A DNA stretch of 64,000 nt from Paragyromitra xinjiangensis (lineage: Eukaryota; Ascomycota; Pezizomycetes; Pezizales; Discinaceae), in contig JBCAMK010000001.1 in assembly GCA_038503065.1 (NCBI GenBank), positions 2,976,001-3,040,000 of the forward strand. Reading direction: 5' to 3'. The notes under the pieces are model-generated. The model was not told the DNA's origin, made no database searches, and was given only the letters and a program-made list of their open reading frames with translations. A program made the translations under genes and the position numbers. Positions 1 through 40,340 of this stretch are shown here, in pieces. How positions within the stretch are numbered: position 1 is the first letter of the stretch; every line of letters begins with the position of its first letter.

Positions 1-1508
1 AAGCATAAGTTATACCTGTCACCTTACTCAATTCACTGATGTCACACTGTCACTCAGGTTTTGAAAATTATTTTGACTAATTATTGACTATCTAATGGAT
101 CTATATACATCGAACGAGTCCCCGCATCCTCCTGCTTGCCCTGCTGCATCCTACTCATCCTACTCCTCCCATTCCGAGCCTGCTGCTGAGCTTGCCCTGG
201 AGTCAATTTGGAGGCAGGAAAGCACGGGATTTGGAGTATATTCAGCAGTCAATTCAGCAGGATTCGGAGGCTCAGAAACAGCCGATTCGGAGTCAATTCA
301 GCAGTCAATTCAGCAGCCAATTCAGCAGGATTCGGAGGCAAGCAGGCAGCTGCTTCAGAGGCTGCTCAGGAGGAGGTTCAGGAGTCGATTCGAAGGCAGG
401 AAAGCACGGGATTCGGAGTCAATTCAGCAGCCAATTCAGCAGCCAATTCAGCAGGATTCAAAGGCTTAGAAACAGCCGATTCTGAGTCTATTCAGAAGTC
501 AATTCAGCAATCAATTCAGGAGTCAATTCGGAGTCTATTCAGCAGTCAATTCAGCAGGATTCGGAGCCTTAGAAACAGCTGATTCGGAGTCTATTCAGCA
601 CTGGATTCAGAGGCTCAGAAACAGCTGATTCGGAGTCTATTCAGCAGTCAATTCAGCAGTCAATTCAGCAGGATTCGGAGGCTTAGAAACAGCTGATTCG
701 GAGTCTATTCAGGAGTCAATTCGGAAGTGAATTCAGCAGTGGATTCGGAGGCAGGAAGGCACGGGATTCGGAGTTTATTCAGCAGTCAATTCAGCAGCCA
801 ATTCAGCAGGATTCGGAGTCTATTCAGGAGTCTATTCAGCAGTGGATTCGGAGTCTATTCGGAGTCTATTCAGGAGTCCATTCAGCAGTGGATTCGGAGT
901 CGATTAAGGAGTGGATTCAGGAGTTGATTCGGAGGCAGGAAAGTAAGGGATTCGGAGTCTATTCAGCAGTCAATTCGGAGGCTCAGGAACAGCCGATTCG
1001 GAGTCTATTCAGGAGTCGATCCGGAGGCTATTCAGCAGTGGTTTCGGAGGATCGGAAGTAGTGGATTCAGCAAGGGGAGTGATGGGCCTATTCAAAGTTA
1101 GCTACTATACAAAACACGTTGATCTTGGAGATGGAGGAGAGGAGGCATGGGCGTCGCAAAGAGGGTTAAAAGGGGTGGGTGGATAGGGGGTGGGCGGCCT
1201 GGGTGGGTTGGGGCAGCAACAGGGAGTTGAAATAAATTCTTCTAAGTCCCTAAGCGAGATCCAATAGTTTGCGATTCAGGGAGTCTCTGGCAGTGGAGTT
1301 GAGGTCCAGGAGCGGGGTGGAGGTGTGGTATCGTGCCTTTGGCTCATGGAGGATACAGTATATCACGGGAGAAGCCATATCCTCCAGGAGATGCAGGTCA
1401 GGCGCTCGTGCCTCCAGGTGCCCTGGGAGCGCATGGAACACCTGGAGGATATTGCCTCCCCGGGAGACGTGCCCATGCTCCTGGAGGCGTTAATTATTTT
1501 TACTGATG
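1..1508 (-). mobile_element. CATCAG-family element D0 (left end outside window)
   Basis: The element ends at 1,508 with TTTTTACTGATG, the inverted copy of the CATCAGTAAAAA start found in D1 (27,765) and D2 (31,297). Reading the minus strand from 1,508 gives the same order as D1 and D2: a TAATTAACGCCTCC start, a hairpin-rich segment with CTCCTGGAGG, the ACTTAGAAGAATTT motif near 1,237, a pyrimidine-rich stretch, a tandem array, then the TGTATATAGATCC motif near 100. By comparison with D1, roughly the last 200 bp lie beyond the window edge. No transposase-like protein is encoded. The right flank is GA at 1,509-1,510; its partner would lie outside the window. Confidence 0.75.
230..1070. repeat. 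12-bp-based tandem array inside D0
   Basis: This array is made of degenerate units such as GGAGTCTATTCA, GCAGTCAATTCA and GCAGGATTCGGA in higher-order order, broken every few units by GGCTCAGAAACAGCCGATTC or GGCAGGAAAGCACGGGATTC. Because unit lengths are multiples of three, all plus-strand frames stay open and give Ser/Gln/Ile-rich apparent proteins. I do not regard these as genes. The same array type occurs in D1, D2, G and B. Confidence 0.85.
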
Positions 1509-1513
1509 GATTC

Positions 1514-3124
1514 CATCAGCAAAAAAAAAATGTCACCCCAACACTTTCCTGTCTTCTGGAAGGCCATATTCCGCCCGCTGAGTTTGTGGCCTTCCCGACC
1601 GCCTAGGCGAGCTGCTCCAAGTGCTGGTCTGTGTGGGTGCAACCTACACACTGCACCGACCTCCTGGCGCTCAGCTGCGGCCACCTGCGCCCAGATGTGT
1701 TACTTAGCGAAATCCAGCAGGCTGCACCCATCGAATTTTTCTAAGTCCCTGAAAACTTGGGACTTAGCAAAATTCACGTCGCCTCCCCCCAGGCACTTAG
1801 TGATTTTCAAAAATCTCCAGGTCGCTTAGTCATCGCTTAGTCGTCACCAAAGCAACGCCAAATAAGACACCAATCTCCACCTCTCCCGTCCTTCCTACTA
1901 TTGCTTCCCCCTATTCCCTCCCACCCATCCCCTATTCACTCCCACCGATCCCCTACCTCGCTGTACCATAGTACTTTGCTAACATCGTGACTTTTAGGCT
2001 CGAAGTACTAAGCTCTGCTTGCAAAGAACCTCCTAGGTAACATCCTGATTCCGTTTATTTGACTCACGCTGATATGCCTCCTAGACTCGCTTCGATCCGC
2101 TGCTTCAGCTTCCTCTGCCTCTGCTGGCTGCCTGCTTCGCTGCTTCCGCCTAAGCGAGCTCAGGAGGTGGCTCAATTGGCTGATTGATTTGCTGCCTGAG
2201 CTTCCTGAGCTTCTTGAGCTTCCGCTGCCTCCTGGAGGTCGTTGATCCACTGCCTGAGCTTCCTCCACCTCCGCCATATGGTCAATTCGCTGCTTGAGCT
2301 TTCGCTGCCTCAGTCAATTGATCGATTCGCTGCAGCAGCCTCCGCTGCCTCCGCCACATGGTCGATCCGCTGCCTGAGCTTCCGCTGCCTCCGCCATATG
2401 GCCGATCCGCTGCCTCCGCCTCCGCTGCCTGAGCTTCCTCCGCCTCCGCCATATGGTCGATCCGCTGCCTGAGCTTCCGCCACCTCCTGGAGGTCATCGA
2501 TCTGCTGCCTGAGCTTCCGCTGCCTCCGCCATATGGCCAATTCGCTGCTGCAGCCTCCGCTGCCTGCGCCATATGGCCGATTTGCTGCTGCAGCCTCCGC
2601 CATATGGCCGATTCGCTGCTGCAGCCTCCGCTGCCTGCGCCATATGGCTGATTTGCTGCTGCAGCCTCCGCTGCCTACGCCATATGGTGGATTCGCTGCC
2701 TGAGCTTCCTCCGCCTCCGCCATATGGTCAATTCGCTGCTCAACCCCCCTCCCTACCCGTAGAGTACGAAGAACAGACACATGTACATATAGAACTATAT
2801 AGATCCATAGAAATAATAGAACAATTGTAAACAAGCATATGGGCTAAAGCCTCCAAACTAGACTACAGGGCGAACTGCTGAAAATGTGATTCTGTGGGCG
2901 CACTGCTTTCCCCCCGCTGTCCTCCAGACGCTCGTCAACTCTCCGTGGTTGCCCAGAGAATAGCTTCCTGATCCTAGGGCGCCCCCATGCCGACCTCTAG
3001 TAAGCTGTCGCCCAGACGTGAAGGGCAAAATTTACAGCCTGAGGGAGGGCTATATTCCACCCCGACTGCTCCAGTTGCCTGATGCATTGGGCGGACCAGG
3101 CGACAATCCGTTTTTTTGCTGATG
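1514..3124 (+). mobile_element. CATCAG-family element C1
   Basis: C1 is a complete element. It starts CATCAGC plus oligo-A and ends oligo-T plus GCTGATG. It is flanked by TC (1,512-1,513) and TC (3,125-3,126), and removing it rejoins the surrounding satellite as GGATTCGGAGGC, a standard unit of that array. Inside, in order, are a TCTTCTGGAAGGCC segment shared with the short H elements, the CTTAGCAAAATTC motif, a CCCACCCATCCCC-like pyrimidine tract, a 40-bp tandem array (about 2,140-2,740), and the TGTACATATAGAACTATATAG motif near 2,780. No coding region is recognisable. Related copies are C2 (inverted), C3 (truncated) and C4 (inverted). Confidence 0.85.
2140..2740. repeat. 40-bp tandem array with CCATATGG palindromes (C1)
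   Basis: Units read CCGCCATATGGTCAATTCGC followed by TGCCTGAGCTTCCGCTGCCT, with variants in which CTGAGC becomes TGCAGC. Spacing between successive CCATATGG boxes is mostly 40 bp or a fraction of it. The same array occurs in C2, C3, C4, A1 and A2, so it is a shared component of two subfamilies. Open frames across it are composition artefacts. Confidence 0.85.
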
Positions 3125-3729
3125 TCGGAGGCTCGGAAACAGCCTATTCGGAGGCAGGAAAGCACGGGATTCGGAGTCTATTCAGGAGTCTATTCGGCAG
3201 TCAATTCAGCAGTCTATTCGGTAGTCTATTCAGCAGTGGATTCGGAGTCCATTCAGGAGTCAATTCAGCAGGATTCGGAGGCAAGCAAGCTGCTGCTTCG
3301 GAGTCTATTCAGCAGTGGATTCGGAGTCTATTCAGGAGTCGATTCAGCAGGATTCGGAGGTTCAGAAAGAGCCTATTCGCAGGCAGGAAAGTACGGGATT
3401 CGGAGTCTATTTAGCAGTCAATTCAGCAGGATTCGGAGGCTTAGAAACAGCCGATTCGGAGTCTATTCAGCAGTCAATTCAGCAGTCAATTCCGCAGGAT
3501 TCGGAGGCTCGGAAATAGCCGATTCGGAGTCTATTCAGGAGTCGATTCGGAGGCAGTTGGATCAACAGCAGAAACAAGACAATGGGTGGAATTGCATCCT
3601 ACATGTACAAAGAGCAGAATAGACTTTTAGTGCCATACAAAGCAGCGTGACAAGCAATGTGACATCGTATGCCCAATGCGCCCAATGCCGTCCAACGCAC
3701 CCACGGGAGGCTGTACGTCCAGTATGTCA
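3125..3729. mobile_element. Element B, inner part (array plus flank)
   Basis: The region continues the 12-bp satellite interrupted by C1, then leaves the array at about 3,555 and runs into unique DNA up to A1. By the inversion argument (see findings), 3,729 was once continuous with the reverse complement of 7,640-7,825, the end of an element called B here. B inserted into the chromodomain of gypsy-1. Its other end lies left of the window. D0 and C1 are nested in it. Confidence 0.5.
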
Positions 3730-4243
3730 TATCAGTAAAAAAAAAAAGGCGTCCTGAAGAGTAACATTGCATAATGGCATTTTGACCCTCTTGAAGACAG
3801 TGATTGCCTCTCGAACCCCTCCTGACAGCCTGCCTGCGCCTGTGCTGCATCTAGACGTGCTTTGACCAACTTTTACTGCCAGCCAACGCCCAAGCGCCTC
3901 TCCAGACCGACCTGTGCGCGTCCGACACCCTCCCGATGCGTGCAGCTGCCGGAACTTTTTTTTTATTTCGCTAAGTCAAAACCCTGACCCTAGGCACTTA
4001 GCGATTTTCAAAATCTTCAAGCTTCGTCTGCTGCTGCCAACGCCTTCTAAGACGCCTACCCCTCTCCCTTCCCACATGCTTCCCCCTATTCCCCCCTACC
4101 CATCCTCAACCTCGCTGTACCGCTGACATTGTGACATTTAGGTTCGAAGTAACGAGCTCTGCTTGCAAAGAACCACCTAGGTAACGTCTTGCTTCCGTTT
4201 ATTTGACTCCCGCTGATATGCCTCCCAGACTCGGTTCGATTCA

Positions 4244-4293
<50 letters not shown>

Positions 4294-5243
4294 CTGCTTC
4301 CGCCCAGCCGAGCGGTGAGGCAGCCACCCGCTGCCTGCGCTGCCTGCGCCTGCGCCATATGGTCGATTCGCTGCCTGCGCTTCCGCCGCTTCCTCCGCTT
4401 CCGCCATATGCTCAATTTGCTGCCTGAGCTTCTGCTGCCTGCGCCAATAGGTCAATTCGCTGCTGCAGCTTCCGCTGCCTGCGCCATATGGTCGATTCGC
4501 TGCTGCAGCTTCCGCTGCCTGCGCCAATAGATCGATTCGCTGCCTAAGCTTCCGCTGCTTCCGCCATATGGTCAATTCGCTGCTGCAGCTTCCGCTGCCT
4601 GCGCCATATGGTCAATTCGCTGCCTGAGCTTCCTGCGCCTGCGCCAATAGGTCGATTCACTGCCTGAGCTTCCTGCGCCTGCGCCATATGGTCAATTCGC
4701 TGCCTGAGCTTCCTGCGCCTGCGCCATATGGTCAATTTGCTTCCTGAGCTTCCTCCGCCTCCGCCACATGGTCGATCTGCTGCCTGAGCTTCCGCTGCCT
4801 CTGCCATATGGTCGATTTGCTGCAGCTGCCTCCGCTGCCTCCACGATATGGTCTATTCGCTGCCGCAGCTTCCGCCGCCTGCGCTGATTGGTCAATTCGA
4901 TGCGGGTAGTAAATGTTTGTACATATATATAGATAGATCCAGAGAATAGTAGTAGATAAATCAGAACGAATTGAAGCCATACGAGCCATACTAGAAAAGC
5001 GTGCAATTCCAAACCTACCAAAATGTGCTGGCCCCGCAAGAGGTTCCCCCGGACGTACAGAGGTCGACAGGCTTCGTCCAGACGATCAGAGCCTGCAACG
5101 CTGCCTTCCACATGACCAGAGCTCCTACCCCATGTCTTCTGGGCGACATGTAGTTGGACCACGCTGCGTCCAGAAGGGTATGTTTTCGCCATGGCATTTT
5201 GGCGTCCAGAGGGACTTTATGGCATTTCCGTTTTTTGCTGATG
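3730..5243 (+). mobile_element. CATCAG-family element A1
   Basis: The element starts TATCAGTAAAA (first base C to T relative to the consensus) and ends TTTTTTGCTGATG. Inside are GGCGTCCTGAA at the left end, the GCACTTAGCGATTTTC motif near 3,990, a pyrimidine-rich tract, a (CCTG)n run at about 4,245-4,290, a 40-bp CCATATGG array (4,350-4,890), and TGTACATATATATAG near 4,920. The flanks do not match as they stand (CA left, AA right), but they match those of inverted copy A2 after the interval 5,244-7,825 is flipped. No protein-coding gene is apparent. Confidence 0.85.
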
Positions 5244-7639
5244 AAGGTCATGCCCTTTGGACTCACCAATGCACCTGGCACCTTCCAACGCTTTGTTAAT
5301 GATTGCCTTACCAAATACCTGGACATCTTTTGCACCGCTTATCTTGATGACATCTTGATTTACAGCGACAACTTGGAGGAACACAAGGAACATGTTCGTA
5401 AGGTTCTCCAGGCCCTAAAACAACAAGGGATCCTCCTTAAACCTGAGTAATGCGAATTCCATACCCAATCAACAAAGTACTTGGGTTTAATTCTCTCACC
5501 GGACGGTATCAGCATGGATGAGAAGAAACTGAAAGCGGTACGCGAATGGGGAATTCCAAAATCAGTTAAAGACGTCCTAGCTTTTTCAGGGTTTGCAAAC
5601 TTCTACCGACGGTTCATATTCGGGTTTTCACGGCTTTCGTCACCCCTCACAGCGCTAACAAAAAAAGATACACCTTTTGAATGGTCCCCAAAAGCACAGC
5701 AGGCGTTCGATTACTTGAAACTCGCTTTCACCACCGCTCCAATCCTGATTCACTTTGACCCTGATAAGAAAATCTTTGTGGAAACGGACGCCTCCGATTA
5801 TGTGTCTGCCGGTGTTCTTTCTCAGTATGATGACAACGGAGTATTACATCCAGTGGCCTTCTTTTCCAAAAAACACTCTCTGGCAGAGTGCAATTACGAA
5901 ATCTACGACAAGGAACTGCTTGCCATCATTCGCACCTTTGAAGAATGGAGACCGGAACTGGAAGGAGCGGCACACCCCATCTCTGTTATTTCCGACCATA
6001 AAAACTTGGAGTATTTTATGACCACCAAGCAACTGAACCGTCGACAAGCCAGATGGGCCGAGTACCTTTCACGCTTTAATTTTGTCATCACTTACCGCCC
6101 AGGGAAACAAGGAGGAAAACCGGACGCATTGACCAGGAGATCAGGAGATCTCCCTGAAGAAGAGGATGAAAGACTTGCACACCAGAGTCAAGTGGTATTA
6201 AAGAAAGAAAATCTGGATCCTAAGCTAAGTTTGTTGGCGGGTTCTTTATCAAACGAACCCGTTGAATTGGACGCCACCCTACTTTCACTATTTAGAGAAG
6301 GATATAAAGCTGACCCATTCCCGGAAAAAATCCTTACAGCATTGGAAAAGGGAGATAGACAATCAAAAGAAATCTCACTGGCAGAATGCACCAACACCAA
6401 TGGGCTCCTCAAGTACCGCCAAGGCTTCTTTGTTCCCGACTTCAATCCACTTCGTCTCGAAATCCTGAAACAATACCACAATACACCAGCAGCAGGACAC
6501 CCAGGATCCGAAAAAACCTTTGAATTGACATCGAGGGAGTTCTATTGGCCAAAGATGAGGGAGTATATCGGCCTATACATTAGGAACTGCCATGTCTGTC
6601 AACGAGCAAAGCCAACAACGCAAGGCACGCAAGGAGTTCTATGCCCCCTACCTATTCCAAATAGACCCTGGGAAGTATTATCAATGGACTTTGTGACTGG
6701 GTTACCAGAATCAGAAGGCTTTGATGCAATAATGGTTATTGTTGACCGACTGTCGAAAATGAGGCACTTGATTCCTTGTAACACTACCGTGAACGCTAGA
6801 CAGGTGGCCGACCTGTACCTTCAGAATGTTTGGAAAATCCACGGCCTACCATCTTATATTACCTCCGACCATGGTACACAGTTCACTGCCAAGTTCTGGA
6901 AAGAGCTATGCCAACAGCTACAAATTAGTGCCAGGATGTCAACCTCCTTCCACCCAGAAACAGATGGGCAAACCGAAAGACTTAATGCGGTAATGGAACA
7001 GTACCTCCGATGCTACGTGTCCTATCAACAAGAAGACTGGGTCAAATGGTTACCAATTGCAGAGTTTGCAGCAAATAATCAAGAATCAGCAAGCACGAAG
7101 ATCACGCCTTTCTTTGCCAATTACGGCTATCACCCTCGCTTCAATACTTTGACAATGCCAACCTCCCGTGACCCACAGGCTCTTGATGCCAAAGACTTTG
7201 CCCAGCGTATGGAAGAACTCCAAAACTTCCTACAAACACAGATCTGGACGGCTCAAGATGTCTACGAAGTCAGCACCAATAAGCACCGAATCCCAGCCCC
7301 AGCTTATGGTATGGGGGATCAGGTTTTTGTATCTACTAAGAACATACGCACCTCTCGGATATCGAGGAAACTGGACTGGAAATGGATGGGCCCATACCCG
7401 GTTAAAAGAGTAGTGTCTCCCTACGCTTATGAGATTGACCTCCCTTCCTCTGTCAAATACCATCCCATCTTTCATGTGTCCCTGATGAAGCCAACTGCGA
7501 CGGATCCCTTGCCAGGGCAGGTTATTTTACCACCACCCCCGGTCCAAGCTAATGATCATGAGGAATATTACATTGACGAGATCCTGGATTCAAGGCTGCA
7601 ATACGGAAAACTGGAATACCTGGTTAAGTGGACAGGTTA
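5244..7639 (+). pseudogene. Gypsy-1 pol, second half (RT end, RNase H, integrase, chromodomain)
   Basis: This is the C-terminal part of a chromoviral Ty3/gypsy polyprotein. In order: the RT motif [13 protein letters not shown] directly at the element A boundary, the catalytic YLDDILIY (about 5,340), RNase H-like FVETDASDY and VISDHKNLEYF, the integrase zinc-binding stretch ending CHVCQRAK, integrase core residues in SMDFVTGLPES and TSDHGTQFTAKFW, the C-terminal HPIFHVSLMKP motif, and a chromodomain start EYYIDEILDSR..LEYLVKWTGY. The frame is broken by TAA at 5,448-5,450 where a Lys or Gln codon is expected, and is then open to the chromodomain. The chromodomain is cut at 7,639 by element B. 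The first half of the same pol lies on the opposite strand at 9,293-10,055, so this piece has been inverted. It is a non-functional copy. Confidence 0.9.
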
Positions 7640-7825
7640 CATCAGCAAAAAGCCAGGTTTGCGTCCAGTCGCGCCTAGAGCAGTAGGCGCACTGGGCGCA
7701 CTGGGCTCAGATTTTTTTTAGGCACTGCGTTAGGCGAATCGTCTAGTATGGCGTACGTGTGGGTGCGCTGGACGTAGGTCCTGCCTCGTCCACACCCAGG
7801 CGCAGGCCTGGAAAATCTGAGCCTG
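7640..7825 (+). mobile_element. Element B, terminal segment
   Basis: The segment starts CATCAGCAAAAAGCC immediately after the chromodomain Gly-Tyr codons of gypsy-1 and runs 186 bp to A2. It contains GTGGGTGCGCTGGACG, which resembles GTGGGTGCGTTGGACG read on the minus strand at about 3,700. This supports the view that both flanks of A belonged to one element. The TA before 7,640 would be one half of its target duplication; the other half is outside the window. Confidence 0.6.
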
Positions 7826-8722
7826 CATCAGCAAAAAATGGAAATGCCGTAAAGTCCCTCTGGACGCCAAAATGCCATGGCGAAAACATACCCTTCTGGA
7901 CGCAGCGTGGTCCAACTACATGTCGCCCAGAAGACATGGGGTAGGAGCTCTGGTCATGTGGAAGGCAGCGTTGCAGGCTCTGATCGTCTGGACGAAGCCT
8001 GTCGACCTCTGTACGTCCGGGGGAACCTCTTGCGGGGCCAGCACATTTTGGTAGGTTTGGAATTGCACGCTTTTCTAGTATGGCTCGTATGGCTTCAATT
8101 CGTTCTGATTTATCTACTACTATTCTCTGGATCTATCTATATATATGTACAAACATTTACTACCCGCATCGAATTGACCAATCAGCGCAGGCGGCGGAAG
8201 CTGCGGCAGCGAATAGACCATATCGTGGAGGCAGCGGAGGCAGCTGCAGCAAATCGACCATATGGCAGAGGCAGCGGAAGCTCAGGCAGCAGATCGACCA
8301 TGTGGCGGAGGCGGAGGAAGCTCAGGAAGCAAATTGACCATATGGCGCAGGCGCAGGAAGCTCAGGCAGCGAATTGACCATATGGCGCAGGCGCAGGAAG
8401 CTCAGGCAGTGAATCGACCTATTGGCGCAGGCGCAGGAAGCTCAGGCAGCGAATTGACCATATGGCGCAGGCAGCGGAAGCTGCAGCAGCGAATTGACCA
8501 TATGGCGGAAGCAGCGGAGGCTTAGGCAGCGGAAGCTGCAGCAGCGAATCGACCATATGGCGCAGGCAGCGGAAGCTGCAGCAGCGAATTGACCTATTGG
8601 CGCAGGCAGCAGAAGCTCAGGCAGCAAATTGAGCATATGGCGGAAGCGGAGGAAGCGGCGGAAGCGCAGGCAGCGCAGGCAGCGAATTTAGCTGCCTCCT
8701 GAGCTCGCTTAGGCGGAAGCAG

Positions 8723-8772
<50 letters not shown>

Positions 8773-9292
8773 TGAATCGAACCGAGTCTGGGAGGCATAT
8801 CAGCGGGAGTCAAATAAACGGAAGCAAGACGTTACCTAGGTGGTTCTTTGCAAGCAGAGCTCGTTACTTCGAACCTAAATGTCACAATGTCAGCGGTACA
8901 GCGAGGTTGAGGATGGGTAGGGGGGAATAGGGGGAAGCATGTGGGAAGGAATAGGGGTAGGCGTCTTAGTAGGCGTTGCTTAGGCAACACCGAAGCGAAG
9001 CTTGAAGATTTTGAAAATCGCTAAGTGCCTAGGGTCAGGGTTTTGACTTAGCTAAATAAAAAAAAAGTTCCGGCAGCTGCACGCATCGGGAGGGTGTCGG
9101 ACGCGCACAGGTCGGTCTGGAGAGGCGCTTGGGCATTGGCTGGCAGTAAAAGTTGGTCAAAGCACGTCTAGATGCAGCACAGGCGCAGGCAGGCTGTCAG
9201 GAGGGGTTCGAGAGGCAATCACTGTCTTCAAGAGGGTCAAAATGCCATTATGCAATGTTACCCTTCAGGACGCCTTTTTTTTTTTACTGATG
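7826..9292 (-). mobile_element. CATCAG-family element A2 (inverted copy of A1)
   Basis: A2 starts CATCAGCAAAAAATGG and ends TTTTTTTACTGATG. Read on the minus strand it follows A1 nearly base for base, including the (CAGG)n run at about 8,728-8,771 and the 40-bp CCATATGG array, but it is 1,467 bp against 1,514 bp. The flanks are TG (7,824-7,825) and TT (9,293-9,294). With A1 it forms a 1.5-kb inverted repeat around the gypsy-1 pol piece. Confidence 0.85.
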
Positions 9293-10055: not shown

Positions 10056-10302
10056 CATCAGCAAAAAAATTAATTGTCACCCAGTGCGTTTTGGTCTTCA
10101 GGTGCATCCTGATCTTCTGGAAGGCCACATTCCTTCAGAAGTACCAGGTGCAATTTTTCACTTTTAGTATGTTATCATTCAGCCTAATCCGGTAACAATA
10201 TTTTTGGCACCCAGTATCATTTTGGCACCCAGTGCATCCTGATCTTCTGGAAGGCCACATTCCTTCAGAGGCACTGGGTGCCACTTTTTTTTTTTGCTGA
10301 TG
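10056..10302 (+). mobile_element. 247-bp CATCAG-family element H1
   Basis: A short non-coding element with ends CATCAGCAAAAAAATTAATT and TTTTTTTTTTTGCTGATG. The inverted ends extend further and share GT..CACCCAGTGC. A direct repeat, CATCCTGATCTTCTGGAAGG, occurs twice inside. It lies between the protease and RT of gypsy-1. The flanks are CG and CA on the plus strand, a 2-bp duplication with one G-to-A change. Removing it restores the codons for HYPLVLGIPW. Copies of identical length lie at 19,455 and 38,761. Confidence 0.9.
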
Positions 10303-11822: not shown

Positions 11823-11824
11823 TC

Positions 11825-13342: not shown

Positions 13343-13344
13343 TC

Positions 13345-14198: not shown

Positions 14199-14215
14199 GG
14201 AATACAAGCAACTCA

Positions 14216-15983: not shown

Positions 15984-16000
15984 GGAATACAAGCAACTCA

Positions 16001-19454: not shown

Positions 19455-19701
19455 TATTAGCAAAAAAATTAATTGTTACTTAGTGTGTTTTGGTCTTCAG
19501 GTGCATCCTGATCTTCTGGAAGACCACATTCCTTCAGAAGTACCAGGTGCAATTTTTCACTTTTAGTATGTTATCATTCAACCTAATCCAGTAACAATAT
19601 TTTTGGCACCCAGTATCATTTTGGCACCCAGTGCACCCTGATCTTCTGGAAGGCCACATTCCTTCAGAGGCACTGGGTGCCACTTTTTTTTTTTGCTGAT
19701 G
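19455..19701 (+). mobile_element. 247-bp CATCAG-family element H2
   Basis: Same length and sequence as H1 apart from scattered transitions, including the start, which reads TATTAG instead of CATCAG (two C-to-T changes). It ends TTTTTTTTTTTGCTGATG and abuts the RT of gypsy-2. The flanks CG and TA do not match, so the left flank has probably been replaced by rearrangement. Confidence 0.85.
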
Positions 19702-19753: not shown

Positions 19754-21679
19754 CATCAGCAAAACCGATTCTGATCCAGGCTTGCGCTTCCAGGTCCCGC
19801 ATCCTCCAGGATGTCTGAGCGTTGGTGTGAGAGGGTCCTGAGCGCAACTGGATCAACCACCCGTGTTGTGGCGCACTCTGGTACCTGCAGGAATGAAGGA
19901 CTGTGCTCCAACACACTCCATGGACCTCGTTTGCAAGGCCATGGACCTTCCTGGAGCTCCTGGAGCTCACCTGCACGGTCCGTGGCCCTCTCTGGAGTTT
20001 TGTACCCATCCCCAGTGCCAATCAGGGTTCACTTTTCCAGGTCCATGGTGCTCTTTGGATACCGTTGAAGTGTGTACCTCCACTCCACCAGCGCCCTGAA
20101 TCATGTACTTGCCCTCTATTAGACCCCTGAAGCACGTACCTGCCCTCTTTTACACCCCCAAATTGCATACCCCACTGACAGGAGATCGCAGGACCCCGCT
20201 TGCAAGCGACAATCAATAACCCTGACCTTAGGGACTTAGCGAATTTTTGGCGAAGGTCTTTTGCTGCTACCCATACCGTTGCCATGTTACCCCTATTCTC
20301 CCACACCCACTCCCATCCACACCTATCCGCACCCATCCACACCCTCTATTGCCTTTACATGAACTTTGCTAAAATCGTGACTTCAGTTCTCACATCCCAC
20401 GTACATTCGGACATCGTTGACAGCAGACATAGGACCCTATTACGTCGGACCTTGCTTGGTCAGACCCTCAGCAGCAGACCCCTTCAGCAGCAGACCTCGC
20501 TCGCTTCCACAGCCTGCTGAATCGACTGCTTGACGGCCTCCTGAATAGACTCCGAATAGACTCCAGAATAGACTCCGAATCGGCTGTTTCTAAGCCTCCG
20601 AATCCTGCTGAATTGACTGCCGAATTGACTGCTGAATAGACTCTGAATCGGCTATTTCTGAGCCTCCGAATCCCGCTGAATTGACTGCTTAATAGACTCT
20701 GAATCAACTCCCAAATCAACTCCGAATAAGCTCCTGAATAGGCTCTGAATTGACTGCTGAATAGGCTCCCAAATAGGCTGTTTCTAAGCCTCCGAATCCT
20801 GCTGAATTGACTGCCGAATTGACTGCTGGATAGACTCCGAATCCCGCTGAATTGACTGCTCAATAGACTCCGAATCGACTCCCGAATCGACTCCCGAATC
20901 GACTCCGAATAGGCTCCCGAATAGGCTCCCGAATAGGCTCCTGAATAGACTCCGAATCCTGCTGAATTGACTGCTGAATTGACTGCTGAATAGACTCCGA
21001 ATCGGCTGTTTCTGAGCCTCCGAATCCCGCTGAATTGACTGCTCAATAGACTCCGAATCAACTCCCGAATCAACTCCCGAATCAACTCCGAATAGGCTCC
21101 AGAATAGGCTCTGAATTGACTGCTGAATAGGCTCCTGAATAGACTCTGAATCCTGCTGAATTGACTGCTGAATTGACTGCTGAATAGACTGCTGAATAGA
21201 CTGCTGAATAGACACCCAATTGACGCCCGAACCTCTGCTGAATCCACTGCCTGCCAGCGCCTGAATCAACTGCTGAATAGTAGACCAAACAATCGATTTT
21301 GGTCAGGTGAGTTTAGTGTGGGGGTGGTTGATTTTGTACATAGAGATCCCGTAGTGTAGCTTTTCAATATACATAGCCGAATTGATACCAATAATCATGA
21401 ACATTCACATACCCCTAGTAGTATAGGTGCTTTACAAGCGACCTACAAGCGACAGGGTGGTCCACGGGAATTGATAGAGCTCCAGGAAGGTCCGCTACCT
21501 ATGGTAAGTGGTCCAGGGAGGTCCACGAGGGTCTGTGAGAAGTGGTGTGTGGTCCAGGAACCATGTGCCAGGGTCCTTGTGATATGGCTCTTCCATGGAC
21601 TGGCACTTGCCTCCATCTGGTCCGCACGGTCCATGAGGGTCCGGGAGTGCCCGGGAGCCGAGAATCAGTTGTGCTGATG
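19754..21679. mobile_element. CATCAG-family element G
   Basis: A complete 1,926-bp element. Its ends, CATCAGCAAAACCGATTCT and (inverted) CATCAGCACAACTGATTCT, agree at 17 of 19 positions. The flanks are CT (19,752-19,753) and CT (21,680-21,681), and removal restores AAPSSFQ-type codons NAPSSFQAM in gypsy-2. It contains a stretch around 19,800-20,160 rich in TGCAGG and TCCTGGAG boxes, the GGGACTTAGCGAATTTT motif at about 20,232, a CACCCACTCCCATCCACACC tract, the 12-bp satellite (20,520-21,290) and the TTTGTACATAGAGATCC motif at about 21,330. No protein gene is recognised. Confidence 0.88.
20520..21290. repeat. 12-bp-based tandem array in G
   Basis: The plus strand reads GAATAGACTCC, GAATTGACTGCT and GAATCCTGCT units, the complement of the D0 array. 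Interspersed CGGCTGTTTCTGAGCCTCCG blocks give a higher-order pattern. Apparent minus-strand proteins (for example 20,468-21,247) are Ser/Phe/Gln-rich products of the repeat. Confidence 0.85.
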
Positions 21680-27764: not shown

Positions 27765-29192
27765 CATCAGTAAAAATAATTAACGCCTCCAGGAGAATGG
27801 GCACGTCTCCCGGGGAGGCAATCTCCTCCAGGTGCTCCGTGCGCTCCCAGGGCGCCTGGAGGCACGAGCGCCCGACCTGCATCTCCCGGAGGATATGGCT
27901 TCTCCCGAGATATGCTTTATCCTCCATGAGCCAAAGGCACGATGCTGAGCCTCCATCCCACTCCTGGACCTCAACACCACTGCAAGAGACTCCCTGAATC
28001 GCAGACTATTGGATCTCGCTTAGGGACTTAGAAGAATTTCTTTCAACTCCCCGTTGCTGCCCCAACCCACCCACGCCGCCCACCCCTATTCACCCACCCC
28101 CTTTTAACCCCCTTTGCTACGCCCATACCTTCTCCCCTCCAACTCCTCCATCAACGCATTTTGTACAGTAGCTAACTCTGAGTAGGCCTGTCAATCCCCT
28201 TGCCGAATCAACTGCTTCCGAGCCTCCGAATCCACTGCTGAATTGACTCCTGAATAGACTCCGAATTGACTGCTGAAATGACTGCTGAATAGACTCCGAA
28301 TCGGCTGTTTCTAAGCCTCCGAATTTACTGCCAAATTGACCCCTGAATAGACTCCGAATCCACTGCTGAATTGACTCCTGAATAGACTCCGAATTGACTG
28401 CTGAATTGACTGCTGAATAGACTGCTGAATAGACTCCGAATCGGCTGTTTCTGAGCCTCCGAATCCACTGCCGAATTGACTCCTGAATTGACTCCGAATC
28501 GGCTGTTTCTAAGGCTCCGAATCCTGCTGAATTGACTGCTGAATAGACTCCTGAATAGACTCCGAATCGGCTGTTTCCAAGCCTCCGAATCCACTGCCGA
28601 ATAGACTCCTGAATAGACTCCGAATCGGCTGTTTTTAAGCCTCCGAATCCTGCTGAATTGACTGCTGAATTGACTGCTTAATAGACTCCGAATCCCGTGC
28701 TTTCCTGCCTCCGGATAGGCCGTTTCCGAGCCTCCGAATCCATAGCTGAATTGGCTGTTTGCCTGCCTCCGAATCGACTCCACGGCAAGCTCAGCAGCAG
28801 GCTCGGAATAGGAGGAGTGGGATCCAGTAGGGCAGGCAGGCAGGCAGGCAGGAGGATGCGGGGACTCGTTCGATGTATATAGATCCATTAGATAGTCAAT
28901 AATAATATTCAAAATATTCTCCAAACTTGAGTGACAGCGTGACATCAGTGAATTGAGAAGGGTGACAGGTGTAATTTATGCTTCTCCACAGCTCTCCATG
29001 GCGCTTTGGGAGTGCCTATATCGATCTCCTAGAGTCTCCTGGAGTGCTTGCTGCTCCTCCGTGTGCCTCCCTGAGGAGGTTGGTCGCGAATCGCTCCTCC
29101 AGGTAGGCACATATTCTCCACGGGTATCCCAAGCCTCCCGGCGATCCCGAGCCTCCTGGAGCTCAGGGAGAAAATAATTCATTTTACTGATG
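27765..29192 (+). mobile_element. CATCAG-family element D1
   Basis: A complete 1,428-bp element with ends CATCAGTAAAAATAATTAAC and ATTCATTTTACTGATG and perfect CT flanks (27,763-27,764 and 29,193-29,194). Inside: a hairpin-rich left end (CTCCAGGAGAATGGG...CCCGGGGAGG), GGGACTTAGAAGAATTT (28,022), a CCCACCCCTATTCACCCACC tract, the 12-bp satellite (28,195-28,790), and ATGTATATAGATCCATTAG (28,874). It is the newest layer of the nest: gypsy-2, then LINE-1, then D1. It contains no transposase. Confidence 0.92.
28195..28790. repeat. 12-bp-based tandem array in D1
   Basis: GAATTGACTGCT, GAATAGACTCC and CGAATCGGCTGTTTCTAAGC units repeat as in G and D2. The long minus-strand frame at 28,325-28,945 spans the array and its flank. 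It recurs in frame in D0 and D2 (MDLYTSNESPHPPAC start) but ends in satellite-encoded Ser/Gln repeats. Confidence 0.85.
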
Positions 29193-31028: not shown

Positions 31029-31044
31029 TAGGAGAGGGAGGTAC
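31029..31044 (+). promoter_or_regulatory. Polypurine tract of gypsy-2
   Basis: TAGGAGAGGGAGGTAC lies directly before the TGTAAC start of the 3' LTR and after the end of pol. That is where the plus-strand primer of reverse transcription is made in LTR retrotransposons. Confidence 0.65.
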
Positions 31045-32912
31045 TGTAACGGACCCACAAGGCTGTTACATGCGAAAGGTAGAATAGACCCGGGCAGACG
31101 GAGAGGTACAAGGACCAGCATGAGTGGAGTAGCTACCACATGCTAGGGAACACCAGTACCCCGCTGACCTGGTGGTTAGGAACATCAAGAGGTGTTAAGG
31201 CTGATGGGCCTGTAGCAGATCCCCGATGACATCAAACACTAAGAGATGTGGTTGAGTTCCTAATCCACCTATGCATGCCCCACCAGCTATGGCTGACATC
31301 AGTAAAAATAATTAACACCTCCAGGAGCATGGGCATGTCTCCCGGGGAGGCAATCTCCTCCAGGTGCTCCATGTGCTCCCAGGGCGCCTGGAGGCACGAG
31401 CGCCTGACCTGCATCTCCTGGAGGATATGGCTTCCTCCGAGATATGCTGTATCCTCCATAAGCCAAAGGCACGATGCTGAGCCTCCATCCCACTCCTGGA
31501 CCTCAACACCACTGCAAGAGACTCCCTGAATCGCAGACTATTGGATCTCGCTTAGGGACTTAGAAGAATTTCTTTCAACTCCCTGTTGCTGCCCCAACCC
31601 ACCCACGCCGCCCACCCCTATTCACCCACCCCCTTTTAACCCCCTTTGCTACACCCATGCCTTCTCCCCTCCAACTCCTTTATCAACGCATTTTGTACAG
31701 TAGCTAACTCTGAATAGGCCCGTCAATCCCCTTGCTGAATCAACTGCTTCCGAGCCTCCGAATCCACTGCTGAATTGACTCCTGAATTGACTCCTGAATA
31801 GACTCCGAATTGACTGCTGAATAGACTGCTGAATAGACTCCGAATTGACTCCCGAATCCTGCTGAATTAACTGCTGGATTGACTCCTGAATAGACTCCAA
31901 ATAGGCTGTTTCCGAGCCTCCAAATCCACTGCTGAATTGACTGCTGAATAGACTCCGAATCGACTCCCAAATCCTGCTGAATTGACCGCTGAATAGACTC
32001 CTGAATAGACTCCGAATCGGCTGTTTCTAAGCCTTCGAATCTACTGCCGAATTGACTCCTGGATTGACTCCTGAATAGACTCCGAATTGACTCCGAATCC
32101 TGCTGAATTGACTACTGAATTGACTCCTGAATAGACTCTGAATCGGCTGTTTCTAAGCTTCCAAATCCTGCTGAATTGACTGCAGAATTGACTGCAGAAT
32201 AGACTGAATCCTGTGCTTTCCTGCCTCTGAATAGGCACTTTCCGAGCCTCCAAATCCTACTAAACTGACTCCTGAATAGACTCCGAATCCACTGCTGAAT
32301 AGACTCCAGAATAGACTCCGAATTGACTCCCGAACCTCCTCCCGAGCAGCCTCCGAAGCAGTAGCTTGCTTGCCTCCGAATCCTGCCAAATAGACTCCTT
32401 AATAGACTCCGAATCCACTGCTGAATTGGCTGCTGAATATACTCCAAATCCCGTGCTTTCCTGCCTCCAAATTGACTCCAGGGCAAGCTCAGCAGCAGGC
32501 TCGGAATGGGAGGAGTAGGATGAGTAAGATGCAGCGGGGCAAGCGGGAGGATGCGGGGACTCGTTCGATGTATATAGATTCATTAGATAGTCAATAATTA
32601 GTCAAAATAATTTTCAAAACCTGAGTGACAGCGTGACATCAGTGAATTGAGTAGGGTAACAAGTATAACTTATGCTTCTCCACAGCTCTCCATGGCATGT
32701 TAGGAGCGCCTATATTGATCTCCTAGAGTCTCCCGAAGTGCTTGCTGGCTCCTCCCAGTGCCTCCCAAAGGAGGTTGGTCACCATTCACTCCTCCAGGAG
32801 GCACATTTTTTCCAGGAGTCTCCAGCGCCTCCCGAGCCTCCCGAGCCTCCTGGAGCTGAGGGAGGAAATAATTATTTTTGCTGATGTGTAACAGCCTTGT
32901 GGGTCCATTACA
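31045..32912 (+). repeat. 3' LTR of gypsy-2, interrupted by D2
   Basis: The LTR starts TGTAACGGACCCACAAGG at 31,045 and ends CTTGTGGGTCCATTACA at 32,912. D2 occupies 31,297-32,886. The first and last 26 bp of the LTR are inverted copies of each other with one mismatch, much longer than the usual TG..CA ends. Without D2 the LTR is about 278 bp. The 5' LTR and the front half of gypsy-2 are not in the window. Confidence 0.7.
31297..32886 (+). mobile_element. CATCAG-family element D2
   Basis: A 1,590-bp element in the same orientation as D1, starting CATCAGTAAAAATAATTAAC and ending TAATTATTTTTGCTGATG. Its left 330 bp are close to identical to D1; the satellite (31,730-32,470) is longer and differently ordered. 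The flanks GA and TG do not match, so either the duplication has mutated or one end has been exchanged. It lies within the gypsy-2 LTR, close to the end. Confidence 0.85.
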
Positions 32913-34307: not shown

Positions 34308-34735
34308 TCAGCAGGAAACATATAAACCGAAGCAAGATGTACTTAAGAGTTTCTTTGCAAGCAGAGTTTAGTACTTCGAGCCTAAAAGTCATGATGTTCA
34401 CAAAGTCCTATGGTACAGCGAGATTGAGAATGGGTGGGAGGGAATAGGGGGAAGCAATAGAAGGAAAAATGGGAAGGAATAGGGGGAGGTAGAGATTGCT
34501 GTCTTACTAGGCATTGCTTTGGCGACGACTAAGCGACGGCTTGGCAACTACAAAGTGATGACTAAGCGACCTCAAGATTTTTGAAAATCCCTAAGTGCCT
34601 GGAAGGTGAGTGAAGTGAATTTTGCTAAGTCCCGAGTTCTCAGGGACTAAGCAAAATCGGAAAATTTGCTAAGTACTCAGGCTGCCCCCCAGCGTTGCCG
34701 GATGGCAGGAGGTCGCTTGAAAGCGCTGCAGGCAG
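34308..34735 (-). mobile_element. Remnant of an A/C-type CATCAG element
   Basis: Between the right end of C3 and the left end of C4 lie about 430 bp resembling the arm of A2 and C2 after the array: CTTTGCAAGCAGAG, TACAGCGAGATTGAGAATGG, GGCGACGACTAAGCGACGG and GTCCCGAGTTCTCAGGGACT. It has no terminal motif of its own, so it is probably the older copy into which C3 and C4 inserted. Confidence 0.55.
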
Positions 34736-36522
34736 CATCAGCAAAAAAACGGATTTTCACCCGGTCCGCCCAATGCATCAGGCACCCCAGGTGGCCTGAG
34801 CAGAATATAGCCCTCCCTCAGACTGTAAATTTTGTCCTTCAAGTCTGGGCGACAGCTTACTAGAGGTTGGCATAGGGGCGCCCTAGGTTAAGGAGGCTAT
34901 TCTCTGGGCAACCACGGAGGGTTGATGAGCGTCTGGAGGACAGTGGGGGGAGAGCAGTGCGCCCACAGAATCACATTTTCAGCAGGTCACCCTGTGGTCC
35001 AGTTTGAATGCTTTTGCCCATATTCTTGTTTACAATTGTTCTATTATTTCTATATAGCTCTATATGTACATGTATCTGTTCTTCGTATCCTAGGGGTAGG
35101 GGGGAGTAGAGGCTCCTGCAGCGGAAGCTACAGCAGTGAATTGACCATATGGCAGAGGCAGCGGAGGCTGCAGAAGCAAATTGATCAATTGACTGAGGCG
35201 GTGGAAGCTCAGGCAGCGGATCGACCATGTGGCGGAGGCAGCAGAGGCTGCTGCAGCGAATCGATCAATTGACTGAGGCAACGAAAGCTCAGGCAGCAGA
35301 TCGACGACCTCCACGAGGCGTCGGAAGCTCAGGCAGCAAATCAACCATATGACGCAGGCAGCGAATTGATCAGCATATTGAGCTCGCTTATGCGGAAGCA
35401 GAGGAAGCTGAAGCAGCGAATCAAATTGAGTCTAGGAGACATATCAGCGGGAGTCACATAAACGGAATCAAGACGTTACCTGGGAGGTTCTTTGCAAGCA
35501 GAGCTCGTTATTTCAAACCTAAATGTCATGATATCAGCGGTACAGCGAGATTGAGAATGGGTGGAAGGGAATAGGGGATGGGTGGGAGAATAAGGGATGG
35601 GTGGGAGGGAATAGAGGGAAGCAATAGTAGGAAGGACGGAGATTGGTGTCTTATTAGGCATTGCTTTGGCGATGGCATGGCGACTACTAATTAATGACCA
35701 AGCAACCTGGAGATTTTTGAAAATCGCTAAGTGTCTGGGTGAATTTTGCTAAGTCCCGAAATTCCTGGGATTTAGCAAAATTTGATGGGTAGAGCCTGCT
35801 GGATTTCGCTAAGTGCCACATCTGGGCGTGGGTGGTCACAGCTGAGCTGCAGCCGAGCGCCAGGAGGCTGGAGCGTTGCGCAGCCTGCTGTCACGAATCT
35901 TGAACAAGCACTTGTGTCTTGTCTATCATGTCATGAAAAGAACTAATGGAGGGAGAAACTAGGTCATGTATTGCGTCATGAAGATCATGACGAGGGGACG
36001 CGCAATGTATTACCCAGTTGGATTTCTTATGACATCATGTACTGAGTCATGACTACGCAATAGCTTGCGTAGGCATTACATCATAGCTAATGAACGCGTC
36101 AGGGACTACGCAATGGTATTGCGTAGAAGGAAGTACAAAAGTCATGTATCGACCTCTATATAAGAGAGATCGAGTAGATAGTTAGTTTAGTTCTGTACGC
36201 AATCTTCTAAGTTATAAATCGAAGTCCTTACTCAACTACGACAACACTTATAGAATGTCTACACTAAAGACAACGACAAAGTGAGTTGAAACACGAGGAT
36301 CGATTGACGCTCGAGTAACAAATACCATGTTACGGAACTGTCATATTCTTGACTTAATGTCGTGCAACGATCGTGAGCGGCATGGTCGTTACACCTGCGC
36401 CTGCACAGGCCAGCACAAGAGCCAGGTTGCCTGGGTTGTAGGGAAGGCCACGAACGCAGCGGGTGGAATATGGCCTTCCAGAAAACAAGAAAGTGTTGGG
36501 GTGACTTTTTTTTTTGCTGATG
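34736..36522 (-). mobile_element. CATCAG-family element C4 carrying a solo LTR
   Basis: Orientation is as C2. It starts CATCAGCAAAAAAACGG and ends TTTTTTTTTGCTGATG. It contains the TGTACATGTATCTG motif (35,065), a shorter CCATATGG array (35,110-35,390), GCTAAGTCCCGAAATTC (35,748) and the TGGAATATGGCCTTCC segment near the right end. A 505-bp solo LTR is inserted at 35,889-36,393; without it C4 is about 1.28 kb. The flanks AG and CA do not match. Confidence 0.8.
35889..36393 (+). repeat. Solo LTR
   Basis: The sequence starts TGTCACGAATCTTG and ends GTCGTTACA, with a perfect 5-bp duplication CCTGC on each side (35,884-35,888 and 36,394-36,398), typical of LTR retrotransposons. It contains a TATATAAG box (36,157-36,164), and ATCATG or GTCATGA boxes recur in the upstream part. 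It has no internal coding region, so it is what remains after recombination between two LTRs. It is unrelated to the gypsy-2 LTR; its TGTCAC start resembles the presumed gypsy-1 LTR only at the ends. Confidence 0.85.
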
Positions 36523-37608
36523 CACCAAAACAGTTCCCGCACAACACTAAATTCTCATCCTCTCATTGAGTATTGTGAACAAGCAAGTTTTTCTGCACAA
36601 ACAAATTTTATTTATATTAAGTTTCTGTGAGCTACTTTGAATCTTGACTATTTAATTTCTTTTTACACACATTCGCACGGTCGCGCTCCATAGTCCTTGT
36701 CTATAGGAGAGCTTTCATGACACATGCATGTATCATTCAAATATTGTCTTGCATTGTTCACTTTGGGTGTGTGTTGCTATTGTCTTGGGGGATGAGGGTA
36801 CCCAAAAGTACTGCAACAAAAGCGTGGGCATGGGAAAGGTTTTCTCATCACAACTAATTAGTTTTACAATGTACAACAAAAAAGATAAAAAAACTCTATT
36901 GACAGGGCTCTGTAGCTAATCTAGGTGCTAGAATCTTCCTTGTAAACTCTGGGGAGCCAATAGTAGTCCTAAATCTCAAATCTAACGTTTTTCAATCTTT
37001 TTTACTGTTCACTGTATAGCTCCTCATGCCTGCCCTGAGCACTCTAGCATGTATGTGCATAAAAGAAAGAAGGTGTGGAAATTGAAAGTTCAAGGTACTC
37101 TAACACAAAAATAGTGCAAAGAAGCACTACTCTGATAAAGTAGCTTCAACCAATTGTATTCCTTTCTTTTTAAAATTGTGGTCGTTTAGTGACAGGACAC
37201 ATGTGAAAACACACCAAAATCACACTTTTACATACCATTTGTTCAACCACTCAACACTTGAGATAATTTCTATCCTCAAGAATCAGATAGATTTTTCTCT
37301 GACATTTTCAAATATGTAATTCTTGCTTTAATTGATTGCATTTTATAAGTGCACTGTTCTTGTAACCAGGCTGAGGTTAGTTGCATCGCCAAATCCTCAC
37401 CAAAACTCAGTAAAAATCAGCTTTTTTGAGGGTTCTCTAGCTTTCATTGATGGCCATTCATGAAAAAAATGGAATTTTGGGATGGGAAAGCTATTAGGAT
37501 AAATTCTAGAAGCACTTTGACCTTCCTATAGACTTATGAGATTATTAGAATTTTCCTTCATAATTAAGTAGTTGACTGAAAAGGTGCTGTTAATGTTTTG
37601 GTGTGTTT
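36523..37608. mobile_element. Old repeat J, left arm
   Basis: This is AT-rich, gene-free DNA. The stretch 36,901-37,208 (GGGCTCTGTAGC...ATCTAGGTGCTAGAATCTTC...GTGACAGGACACA) is matched in inverted orientation, in shortened form, by 40,343-40,475. The two arms enclose about 3 kb that includes element I. At about 36,793 a motif, GAGGGTACCCAAAAGTACTG...GGGCATGGGAAAGGTT, recurs in the TIR element at 44,769-45,186. This is probably a decayed inverted-repeat transposon into which I inserted. Confidence 0.5.
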
Positions 37609-38129
37609 TCATCAGCAAAAAATTCGTTCCTCCACAGAGGTCAGAGCGTTGGTCACGCCTCGGCTGCCTCGCTGTGCCTCGCTGGAAATTTCATGATCTT
37701 GTTTCCCCTCGCTGACCTCGCTGCAACTTTAGGAGCACTCCCGTCCTCGCTGGCCTTGGCAGAGATCAGGATCATGACCTTCGTCCTCTGCAGAGATCAG
37801 CATGACGTTCTTCGTCCTCGCTGGCCTTGGTAAAGATCAGGATGACGTTCTGTGTCCTCGTAGAGACAGCGCTCGGCTCAGGCCTTGGTAGAGGGTCAAT
37901 TGGGGCAGGAATTCGGCCGCTGCTTCTAGGGCTCTGAATAGTGGAAATACGCTTGATTCGCTATCTCTATATCTATTGAACAATAGCTATGTAAAGAATT
38001 CGCTATCTACAAGTCACTCTAGGACAATATTTATGTACAGGCTTCTTCATTCATATGCACCAATGTCCCAATCACTATCCACATCGACAGCGAGCCCAGA
38101 ACGCAGACAGTGGATCCAGCAGTTAGGCT

Positions 38130-38500
38130 AGCCTAGAGACAGCAATAGGAAGTCAGCAAATTGAGCAGCTAGGCGCGCCTGGAGGAGTCAGCGAATTCAG
38201 CAGCTAGGCGCGCCTGGAGGCAGCAATAGGAAGTCAGCGAATTGAGCAGCTAGCTGGGCCTGGAGGCAGCAATAGGAAGTCAGCAAATTCAGCAGCTAGG
38301 CGCGCCTGGAGGCAGCAATAGGAAGTCAGCAAATTAAGCAGCTAGCCGAGCCTGGAGGCAGCAATAGGAAGTCAGCGAATTCAGCAGCTAGGCACACCTG
38401 GAGGCGGCAATAGGAAGTCAGCGAATTGAGCAGCTAGCCGAGCCTGGAGAAGTCAGCGAATTCAGCAGCTAGGTGCGCCTCCAGGCAAATAGTAGGAAAT
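38130..38500. repeat. 46-bp tandem array in I, left arm
   Basis: The unit is GTCAGCGAATTCAGCAGCTA then GGCGCGCCTGGAGGCAGCAATAGGAA; successive GTCAGC starts at 38,233, 38,279 and 38,325 are exactly 46 bp apart. Some units lack the CAGCAATAGGAA part. Confidence 0.85.
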
Positions 38501-38760
38501 CCAGCAAATTTGGCTGCTAGGCAGGCTCAGGAGGGATCATGGAAGTGGAGGAACAGCGGAGGGTAGGCAAGTCGACCCGAATACCTGTAAATAACACGTG
38601 TTAGCAAGTGATCAGCCCAAGACTTAGAGGAGACCTAGGAAAGCAGAAGATCGCGAGATTTGCAACAGGCGGAGGAGGGAGAAGGGGGAGAGGTTGCCTA
38701 AATCAGGATATGGATGTTTGCTTAGGCCGGGTAAATCCGCTTATTAAGCCTGGCTGAAAG

Positions 38761-39007
38761 CATCAGCAAAAAAAAAAAGTGGCACCCAGTGCCTCTGAAA
38801 GAATGTGGCCTTCCAGAAGATCAGGGTGCACTGGGTGCCAAAATGATACTGGGTGCCAAAAATATTGTTACCGGATTAGGCTGAATGATAACATACTAAA
38901 AGTGAAAAATTGCACCTGGTACTTCTGAAGGAATGTGGCCTTCCAGAAGATCAGGATGCACCTGAAGACCAAAACGCACTGGGTGACAATTAATTTTTTT
39001 GCTGATG
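38761..39007 (-). mobile_element. 247-bp CATCAG-family element H3
   Basis: Third copy of H, in reverse orientation and again exactly 247 bp, with perfect AG flanks (38,759-38,760 and 39,008-39,009). It lies near the centre of element I and is therefore younger than it. CATCAG and CTGATG ends are unmutated, unlike H2. Confidence 0.92.
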
Positions 39008-39359
39008 AGGGAACCATATTTTCTTCGCAATGCACTTCAACATTTATTTTGGCTGTGTTCTCCATACATTTGAGATGCTGATTTGCATAAAGAATAAATC
39101 ATAGTTCGGCGCAAAACGAGTGATTTGGTGTGGCTCGATTCCGCTTATCCGGCTGTTAAGCTCGCCTCTTGGCGCAAATTTCCCCTGTTCCCAACCTCCT
39201 TCCAACCTCTTGCCCCTATCCTCCTGCCACTTCACGATCTTCAGCTTTCCTAGGTCTGCTCCAAGTCTTGGGCTGATCACTTGCTAAGACGCGTTATTTA
39301 CAGGTATTCGGGTCGACTCGTCTACCCTCCACTGTTCCTCCACTTCCTCAATCCCTCCT

Positions 39360-39835
39360 GAGCCTGCCTAGCAGCCAAATTCGCTGGATTTCCTACTATT
39401 TGCCTGGAGGCACACCTAGCTGCTGAATTCGCTGACTTCTCCAGGCTCGGCTAGCTGCTCAATTCGCTGACTTCCTATTGCCGCCTCCAGGTGTGCCTAG
39501 CTGCTGAATTCGCTGACTTCCTATTGCTGCCTCCAGGCTCGGCTAGCTGCTCAATTCACTGACTTCCTATTGCTGCCTCCAAGCGCGCCCAGCTGCTGAA
39601 TTTGCTGACTTCCTATTGCTGTCTCCAGGCTCGCCTAGCTGCTGAATTTGCTGACTTCCTATTGCTTCCTCCAGGCTCGGCTAGCTGCTCAATTTGCTGA
39701 CTTCCTATTGCCGCCTCCAGGCGTGCCTAGCTGCTGAATTCGCTGACTTCCTATTGCTGCCTCCAGGCGCGCCTAGCTGTTGAATTCGTTGACTTCCTAT
39801 TGCTGTCTCCAGGCTCGCCTAGCTGCTGGATCCAC
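39360..39835. repeat. 46-bp tandem array in I, right arm (inverted)
   Basis: Units read GCCTAGCTGCTGAATTCGCT then GACTTCCTATTGCTGCCTCCAG, the complement of the left-arm array. The array is longer here (about ten units), so the arms are not exact copies and have gained or lost units independently. Confidence 0.85.
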
Positions 39836-40340
39836 TGTCTGAGTTCTGGGCTCGGTGTCGGTGTGGATAGTGATTGGGACATTGGTGCATATGAATGAAG
39901 AAGCCTGTACATAAATATTGTCCTAGAGTGACTTGTAGATAGCGAATTCTGTACATAGATATTGTTCAATAGATATAGATATAGCGAATTAAGCGTATTT
40001 CCACTACTCGGAGCCCTAGAGGCAGCAGCCGATGAGTGACTGAATTCCTGCGTGACGTGACCCTCCAGCGAGACCACAGCTGAATGCTGTCTCTCTAGAG
40101 ACGAAGAACGTCGTCCTGATCTCAGCCGAGGACGAAGAATGTGATCCTGATTTCTGCCGAGGACGAAGAACGTGGTCCTGATTTCTGCCGAGGATGAGGG
40201 TCGTGGTGCTGCTCCTCGGTGGAGGTCAGAATCTTGCTCATGTCTCGGCAGAGATCAGGATCTTGCTCATGCCTCTGCAATTCATAAGTTTCCTCGGTGG
40301 CCTCGGTGGCCTCCACAGAGGAATGAATTTTTTGCTGATG

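Follow-up and report, generated by a model that had tools for sequence, protein, structure and literature searches.

CACTA/EnSpm transposons have CAC..GTG ends and a target-site duplication (TSD) of 3 bp. PlavakaB, which lies within the same CACTA/EnSpm-Mirage-Chapaev-Transib (CMCT) group, is described with the termini 5'-CATCA..TGATG-3' and a TSD of 2 or 3 bp, and PlavakaA with the termini TGT..ACA and a TSD of 2 bp; Plavaka transposases share the motifs C(2)C and H(3-4)H, and the families in that account were reconstructed from Agaricomycotina (PMC12730594). In Marasmius oreades, Plavaka was defined by the domain PF18759 and its terminal motif was characterized in a supplementary figure, with non-autonomous DNA elements being classified by terminal inverted repeat (TIR) and TSD (PMC8290104). 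Plavaka has also been reported from Rhizophagus, and is said there to be missing from public repeat databases (PMC11075540). Here we analyze a stretch of 64,000 nucleotides from the pezizomycete Paragyromitra xinjiangensis, hereafter the window (C1:2976001-3040000, where the prefixes C1: and C2: denote contigs 1 and 2 of the 48.2-Mb, 22-contig genome), whose transposons with inverted CATCAGYAAAAA ends we assign with high confidence to PlavakaB, as non-autonomous members with relatives of about 9 kb that carry a Plavaka transposase. The placement was made by termini, TSD, and PF18759 rather than by a tree.

Ends, target duplications, and full-length partners

The original prediction proposed transposons with short inverted CATCAGYAAAAA ends and variable 2-bp target duplications, and both features hold well beyond the window. 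Within it there are 22 exact CATCAGYAAAAA ends, every one of them before position 40,341, and 46 ends when up to 2 mismatches are allowed, compared with a mean of 12.7 and a maximum of 22 in shuffled sequence. Genome-wide, the 12-mer occurs 829 times and a reversed-pattern control 12 times. The first 100 of the 829 lie on contigs 1 and 2, and around some of these we picked 20 regions (fetched regions have L numbers), so the end pairs drawn from them are a convenience sample. The 99 ends with at most 1 mismatch in the window and these regions were clustered by the sequence following the 12-mer, and opposite ends of the same family were joined into 40 pairs, with 19 unpaired ends left out. An exact 2-bp duplication flanks 31 of the 40 pairs, compared with a mean of 4.4 and a maximum of 13 when the flanks were re-paired 10,000 times; a 3-bp match was found in 1 pair (re-paired mean, 0.8). 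The duplicated dinucleotide varies, with TC, TT, and TG occurring five times each, GA four times, AA and TA three times each, CT twice, and four further dinucleotides once each. As TA makes up only 3 of the 31 exact duplications, Tc1/mariner is ruled out, as had been argued from the window. Read outside the 40 pairs were elements G (CT/CT), D2 (CG/TA), and H1 (TA/GA) and a full-length C-type element (GA/GA). At L017:2543-2544, two element ends abut with zero bases between them.

The mobilizing enzyme had been expected elsewhere in the genome, and three elements of about 9 kb were found with matching ends and an internal PF18759 gene: L010:842-9917 (9,076 bp, TSD TC), L026:385-9667 (9,283 bp, TSD TG), and C2:2817033-2826347 on contig 2 (9,315 bp, flanks GA/GA), which has the C-family ends of the window. 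In the last of these, one C end, at C2:2826347, is located 5.9 kb upstream of the transposase and the opposite end is at C2:2817033; for two other C candidates (C15 and C20), the sequence retrieved did not contain a second C end. Gene content was read for L010 and L026 and in part for the contig 2 element, whose interior has matches to PF18759 and to DUF6532. In L010, PF18759 matches two stretches of one frame (E values of 9e-16 and 1.3e-54) with an in-frame TAG between them, possibly marking an intron, and DUF6532 matches at 2.3e-10; the corresponding values for L026 are 2.9e-59 and 4.4e-7. L010 has a third open frame, which shares 56% identity across 410 positions with a frame of L028 and is weakly similar to one of L026 (E value of 7e-6 in a single comparison); its best Pfam match, Tri-helical, fell below the cut-off.

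Across the genome, PF18759 has at least 125 matches, a lower bound from scoring 123 of 168 candidate places, which merge into 99 loci; it was found in none of 14 control genomes. DUF6532 has 88 matches and lies within 10 kb of 61 of the 99 transposase loci, on the opposite strand in 56 and divergently oriented in 51. Random placement would predict 6.9 such loci and reached 19 at most, an excess that is somewhat overstated because random placement ignores the clustering of transposons. Plavaka elements thus have a divergently oriented companion gene in DUF6532, a domain whose function is unknown.

Short and long elements resemble each other at their ends, and full-length partners with matching ends exist for the T1, H, and C families. 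L010 and five T1 copies correspond over the first 92 bp (90 to 97% identity) and the last 53 to 74 bp (84 to 93%), and the T1 copy in L027 has an additional internal 45-bp match. Three of four H copies share 58 to 143 bp with L026 at one or both ends (69 to 88%). This sharing points to the terminal 50 to 90 bp as the likely recognition sites. We propose that the transposase would be supplied in trans by the full-length relatives and would recognize about 50 to 90 bp per end, made up of the 12-bp inverted CATCAGYAAAAA and a family-specific subterminal sequence; the element would then be cut out and reinserted at a staggered break, with 2 bp of near-arbitrary sequence being duplicated in a putative cut-and-paste reaction.

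Empty sites were sought for 39 insertions by joining 100 bp of each flank, minus one copy of the duplication, and comparing the product with the window and the fetched regions. Three insertions have gap-free matches across all 200 bp, at 95.5 to 99.5% identity, and uphold the predicted 2-bp duplication: L017:6510-8443 (L039, 99%, and L041, 97.5%), L021:1031-2882 (L026, 99.5%), and L018:754-2461 (L016, 95.5%). Gap-free but shorter matches were obtained for L027:732-4352 (155 of 200 bp in L018, 97.4%) and L012:1762-3562 (115 to 123 bp, reaching 15 to 23 bp beyond the joint, at three places). Seven more full-length or nearly full-length matches have 2 to 7 gap positions (L017, four; L016, two; L018, one), one L015 match is merely 72% identical with 6 gap positions, and the remainder are self-matches or lie within repeat arrays. 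For the other queries of the 39, the joint was spanned by no match in the sequence compared, the array-bound L024 K query being judged among the matches listed. Both L039 and L041 are loci of the Plavaka transposase, and the site in L026 is on the 5' side of a transposase frame, so the C elements L017:6510-8443 and L021:1031-2882 landed in or beside Plavaka genes.

The encoded protein was compared with its relatives. All 51 aligned relatives have C95, D113, C128, C131, and E427, and 49 of them have H403, as 49 have H407, so that the motifs D, C(2)C, H(3)H, and E found in L010 are conserved; the acidic residues among them are putatively catalytic. The few organism names among the 120 relatives listed are Maublancomyces gigas (63%), Morchella importuna (48 and 52%), Morchella snyderi, and Tuber brumale, and three of these organisms, when looked up, proved to be Pezizomycetes. 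When the Plavaka alignment was used as a profile against solved structures, no match was obtained up to an E value of 1. That these are ordinary CACTA (EnSpm) elements with mutated ends would agree with the conserved motifs and with 2-bp TSDs and CA..TG termini, which fall in the range described for the CMCT group (PMC12730594). There are, however, no CAC or CACTA ends, the single 3-bp match among the 40 pairs is not what such elements would leave, and hmmscan run up to an E value of 1 returned Plavaka and no CACTA family, which makes this explanation very improbable. The kinship to CACTA suggested by the original prediction nevertheless stands, by way of the CMCT group. PlavakaA was rejected since its TGT..ACA termini differ from the CATCAG.. 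ends found here.

What did not survive is the claim that the family is apparently undescribed. The elements and their full-length relatives combine PF18759, CATCA..TGATG termini, a 2-bp TSD, and the C(2)C and H(3-4)H motifs, and their ends therefore match a published lineage, given the PlavakaB termini and its 2- or 3-bp TSDs (PMC12730594); individual species-level families may still be unnamed. One could still argue for an undescribed superfamily with an unrelated mobilizing enzyme, in which the Plavaka genes are chance passengers, because the subfamilies differ strongly within their 12-bp ends and no transposase was found in any short copy. Such a superfamily would have to accommodate three full-length elements that have these same ends, 2-bp TSDs, and an internal PF18759 gene, as well as the agreement with the printed PlavakaB ends and TSD (PMC12730594), and we consider it highly unlikely.

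Several observations weigh against the PlavakaB assignment. No full-length partner was found for A, D, G, or I, and H2 has no detectable similarity to L026. Nine of the 40 pairs lack an exact TSD, as do the window insertions H1 and D2. Two of the nine are explained by one inversion, two more perhaps by another, and five are left. The first inversion had been proposed for A1 and A2, and it fits: their flanks, CA..AA and TG..TT, become CA/CA and TT/TT once the intervening DNA is inverted. Among the five, D1 (CG/CA) and L015:732-2622 (CA/TA) are one base off, L024:576-2698 (AT/TA) has a nested element inside, and H3 (GA/TG) and C4 (AG/CA) have mismatching flanks without explanation.

A1 and A2 (window positions 3730-9292) are oppositely oriented, and their flanking dinucleotides match crosswise only. 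Crosswise-matching flanks also occur at L020:3078-4774 (CA..TG) and L021:3631-5402 (TG..CA), inverted A copies about 31 kb apart, where another inversion of the same kind may have taken place.

Bodies shared between families

The less ordinary part of the finding is one shared body under different ends. The A, C, and T1 families have different ends and a common body, consisting of a 40-bp minisatellite followed by single-copy DNA. The minisatellite has about 10 to 24 copies where a 40-bp period was reported, with multiples of that period elsewhere, and a 20-mer of its unit occurs 670 times genome-wide (control, 0). Between families, the bodies align over up to about 430 columns at 71 to 91% identity, and the similarity stops before the ends. 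H and G have another common body, of short units. Each of 13 examined elements from the A, C, T1, H, and G families has 7 to 25 copies of a GAATYGAC core; among the 40 pairs, C1, C4, and an A copy that holds a nested insert have only 1 to 3, and two H copies have 30 and 32. The core is absent from L010 and L026, from I and D1, and from the final 23 kb of the window, and, as I and D lack it, it is not a rule for the whole group. The orientation of the arrays relative to the ends is constant within each family. An Rfam scan of one C element gave no match up to an E value of 0.1.

From this pattern we infer an exchange of ends between families sharing the A/C/T1 body. Alternatively, the body may have arisen once and the ends diverged in place without any exchange, an account that concerns the body only and is compatible with the PlavakaB assignment. 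The constant array orientation within each family would fit this, and 71 to 91% identity between bodies would permit a long divergence. Body similarity stops short of the ends, however, many copies exist of each end type (in clusters of 7 to 17), and the full-length element matched by the T1 end pair is not the one matched by the C end pair; we give divergence in place appreciable weight, short of even.

With end exchange, non-autonomous Plavaka elements could be seen as modular, with one non-coding cassette (an array of about 10 to 24 40-bp units with the GAATYGAC core, plus single-copy DNA) fitted anew into three or more different end pairs, of which two have their match in different full-length Plavaka elements. 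The array would then be a functional cis-module and not filler, for instance by binding a protein encoded by the element or by the host; we regard this reading as a whole as unlikely. The A/C/T1 body was found in neither L010 nor L026, where no T1 similarity extends beyond the ends and no such array is among the top three tandem arrays of each; a direct role for the arrays in serving the transposase is weakened by this absence. We found no account of the shared-body pattern in the accessible text of the open-licence literature searched, including PMC12730594, PMC9674265, PMC8290104, and PMC11075540. Elements that combine one body with different ends provide a natural test of how a non-autonomous transposon comes to be moved by another enzyme.

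Elements mapped in the window

The window map comprises 14 insertions, an end fragment, and an H-type array remnant. Our letters H and D correspond to D and H, respectively, in the original prediction, and C1 to C4 as element names are copies of the C family. H1 (1-1508, minus strand) is non-autonomous with H ends and starts 201 bp upstream of the window, at C1:2975800. C1 follows (1514-3124, minus strand; 1,611 bp), a non-autonomous element holding the 40-bp minisatellite, and to its right lies the array remnant (3125-3577), recognized by its repeat families and with no ends identified. The non-autonomous A copies are A1 (3730-5243, minus strand; 1,514 bp), whose left end begins with T, and A2 (7826-9292, plus strand; 1,467 bp), which adjoins the end fragment (7640-7825, plus strand) of a further end type, CATCAGCAAAAAGCCAGG... 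(cluster 9). D1 (10056-10302, minus strand; formerly H1) is a MITE-like element of 247 bp whose flanks had been correctly read as one transition off. C2 (11825-13342, plus strand; 1,518 bp) is non-autonomous, and D2 (19455-19701, minus strand) is MITE-like with a decayed left end (TATTAG...). G (19754-21679, plus strand; 1,926 bp) is non-autonomous and has variant ends, CATCAGCAMAAC, around an H-related body. Two non-autonomous H elements follow, H2 (27765-29192, plus strand; 1,428 bp; formerly D1) and H3 (31297-32886, plus strand; 1,590 bp). C3 (33116-34307, minus strand) has no recognizable left end; its start is placed where the match to C2 begins and may truly be further left than 33116. 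C4 (34736-36522, plus strand) is 1,787 bp long. Element I (37610-40340; 2,731 bp; no strand assigned) has 46-bp arrays in inverted halves around the nested, MITE-like D3 (38761-39007, plus strand; 247 bp; formerly H3). The six duplications originally read as exact are all present: TC at C1 and C2, CT at H2 and G, AG at D3, and TT at I.

No exact CATCAGYAAAAA end occurs in positions 41001-64000, where the frames look host-like by eye (zinc-finger-like at 42723 and kinase-like at 53352). A host gene at 62621-63907 has 10 protein matches.

Comparison with described lineages

For an understudied transposon lineage, the window and its relatives provide empty sites, a rule for the TSD, and full-length elements that are probably the partners of the short ones, all from a pezizomycete. 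With CACTA/EnSpm the elements share transposase motifs, short TIRs, and non-autonomous derivatives, but neither its CAC..GTG ends nor its 3-bp TSD is found here. The Plavaka elements of Marasmius oreades were likewise defined by PF18759, and non-autonomous elements were sorted there by TIR and TSD; those, which need not all be Plavaka, are mostly shorter than 1 kb (PMC8290104), whereas the elements in the window measure 0.25 to 2.7 kb, many with minisatellite bodies. The closest system is PlavakaB, with the same CATCA..TGATG termini, 2-bp TSD, Plavaka transposase, and C(2)C and H(3-4)H motifs; its families come from Agaricomycotina and the term "nonautonomous" does not occur in the main text of that account (PMC12730594), whereas the host here is a pezizomycete.

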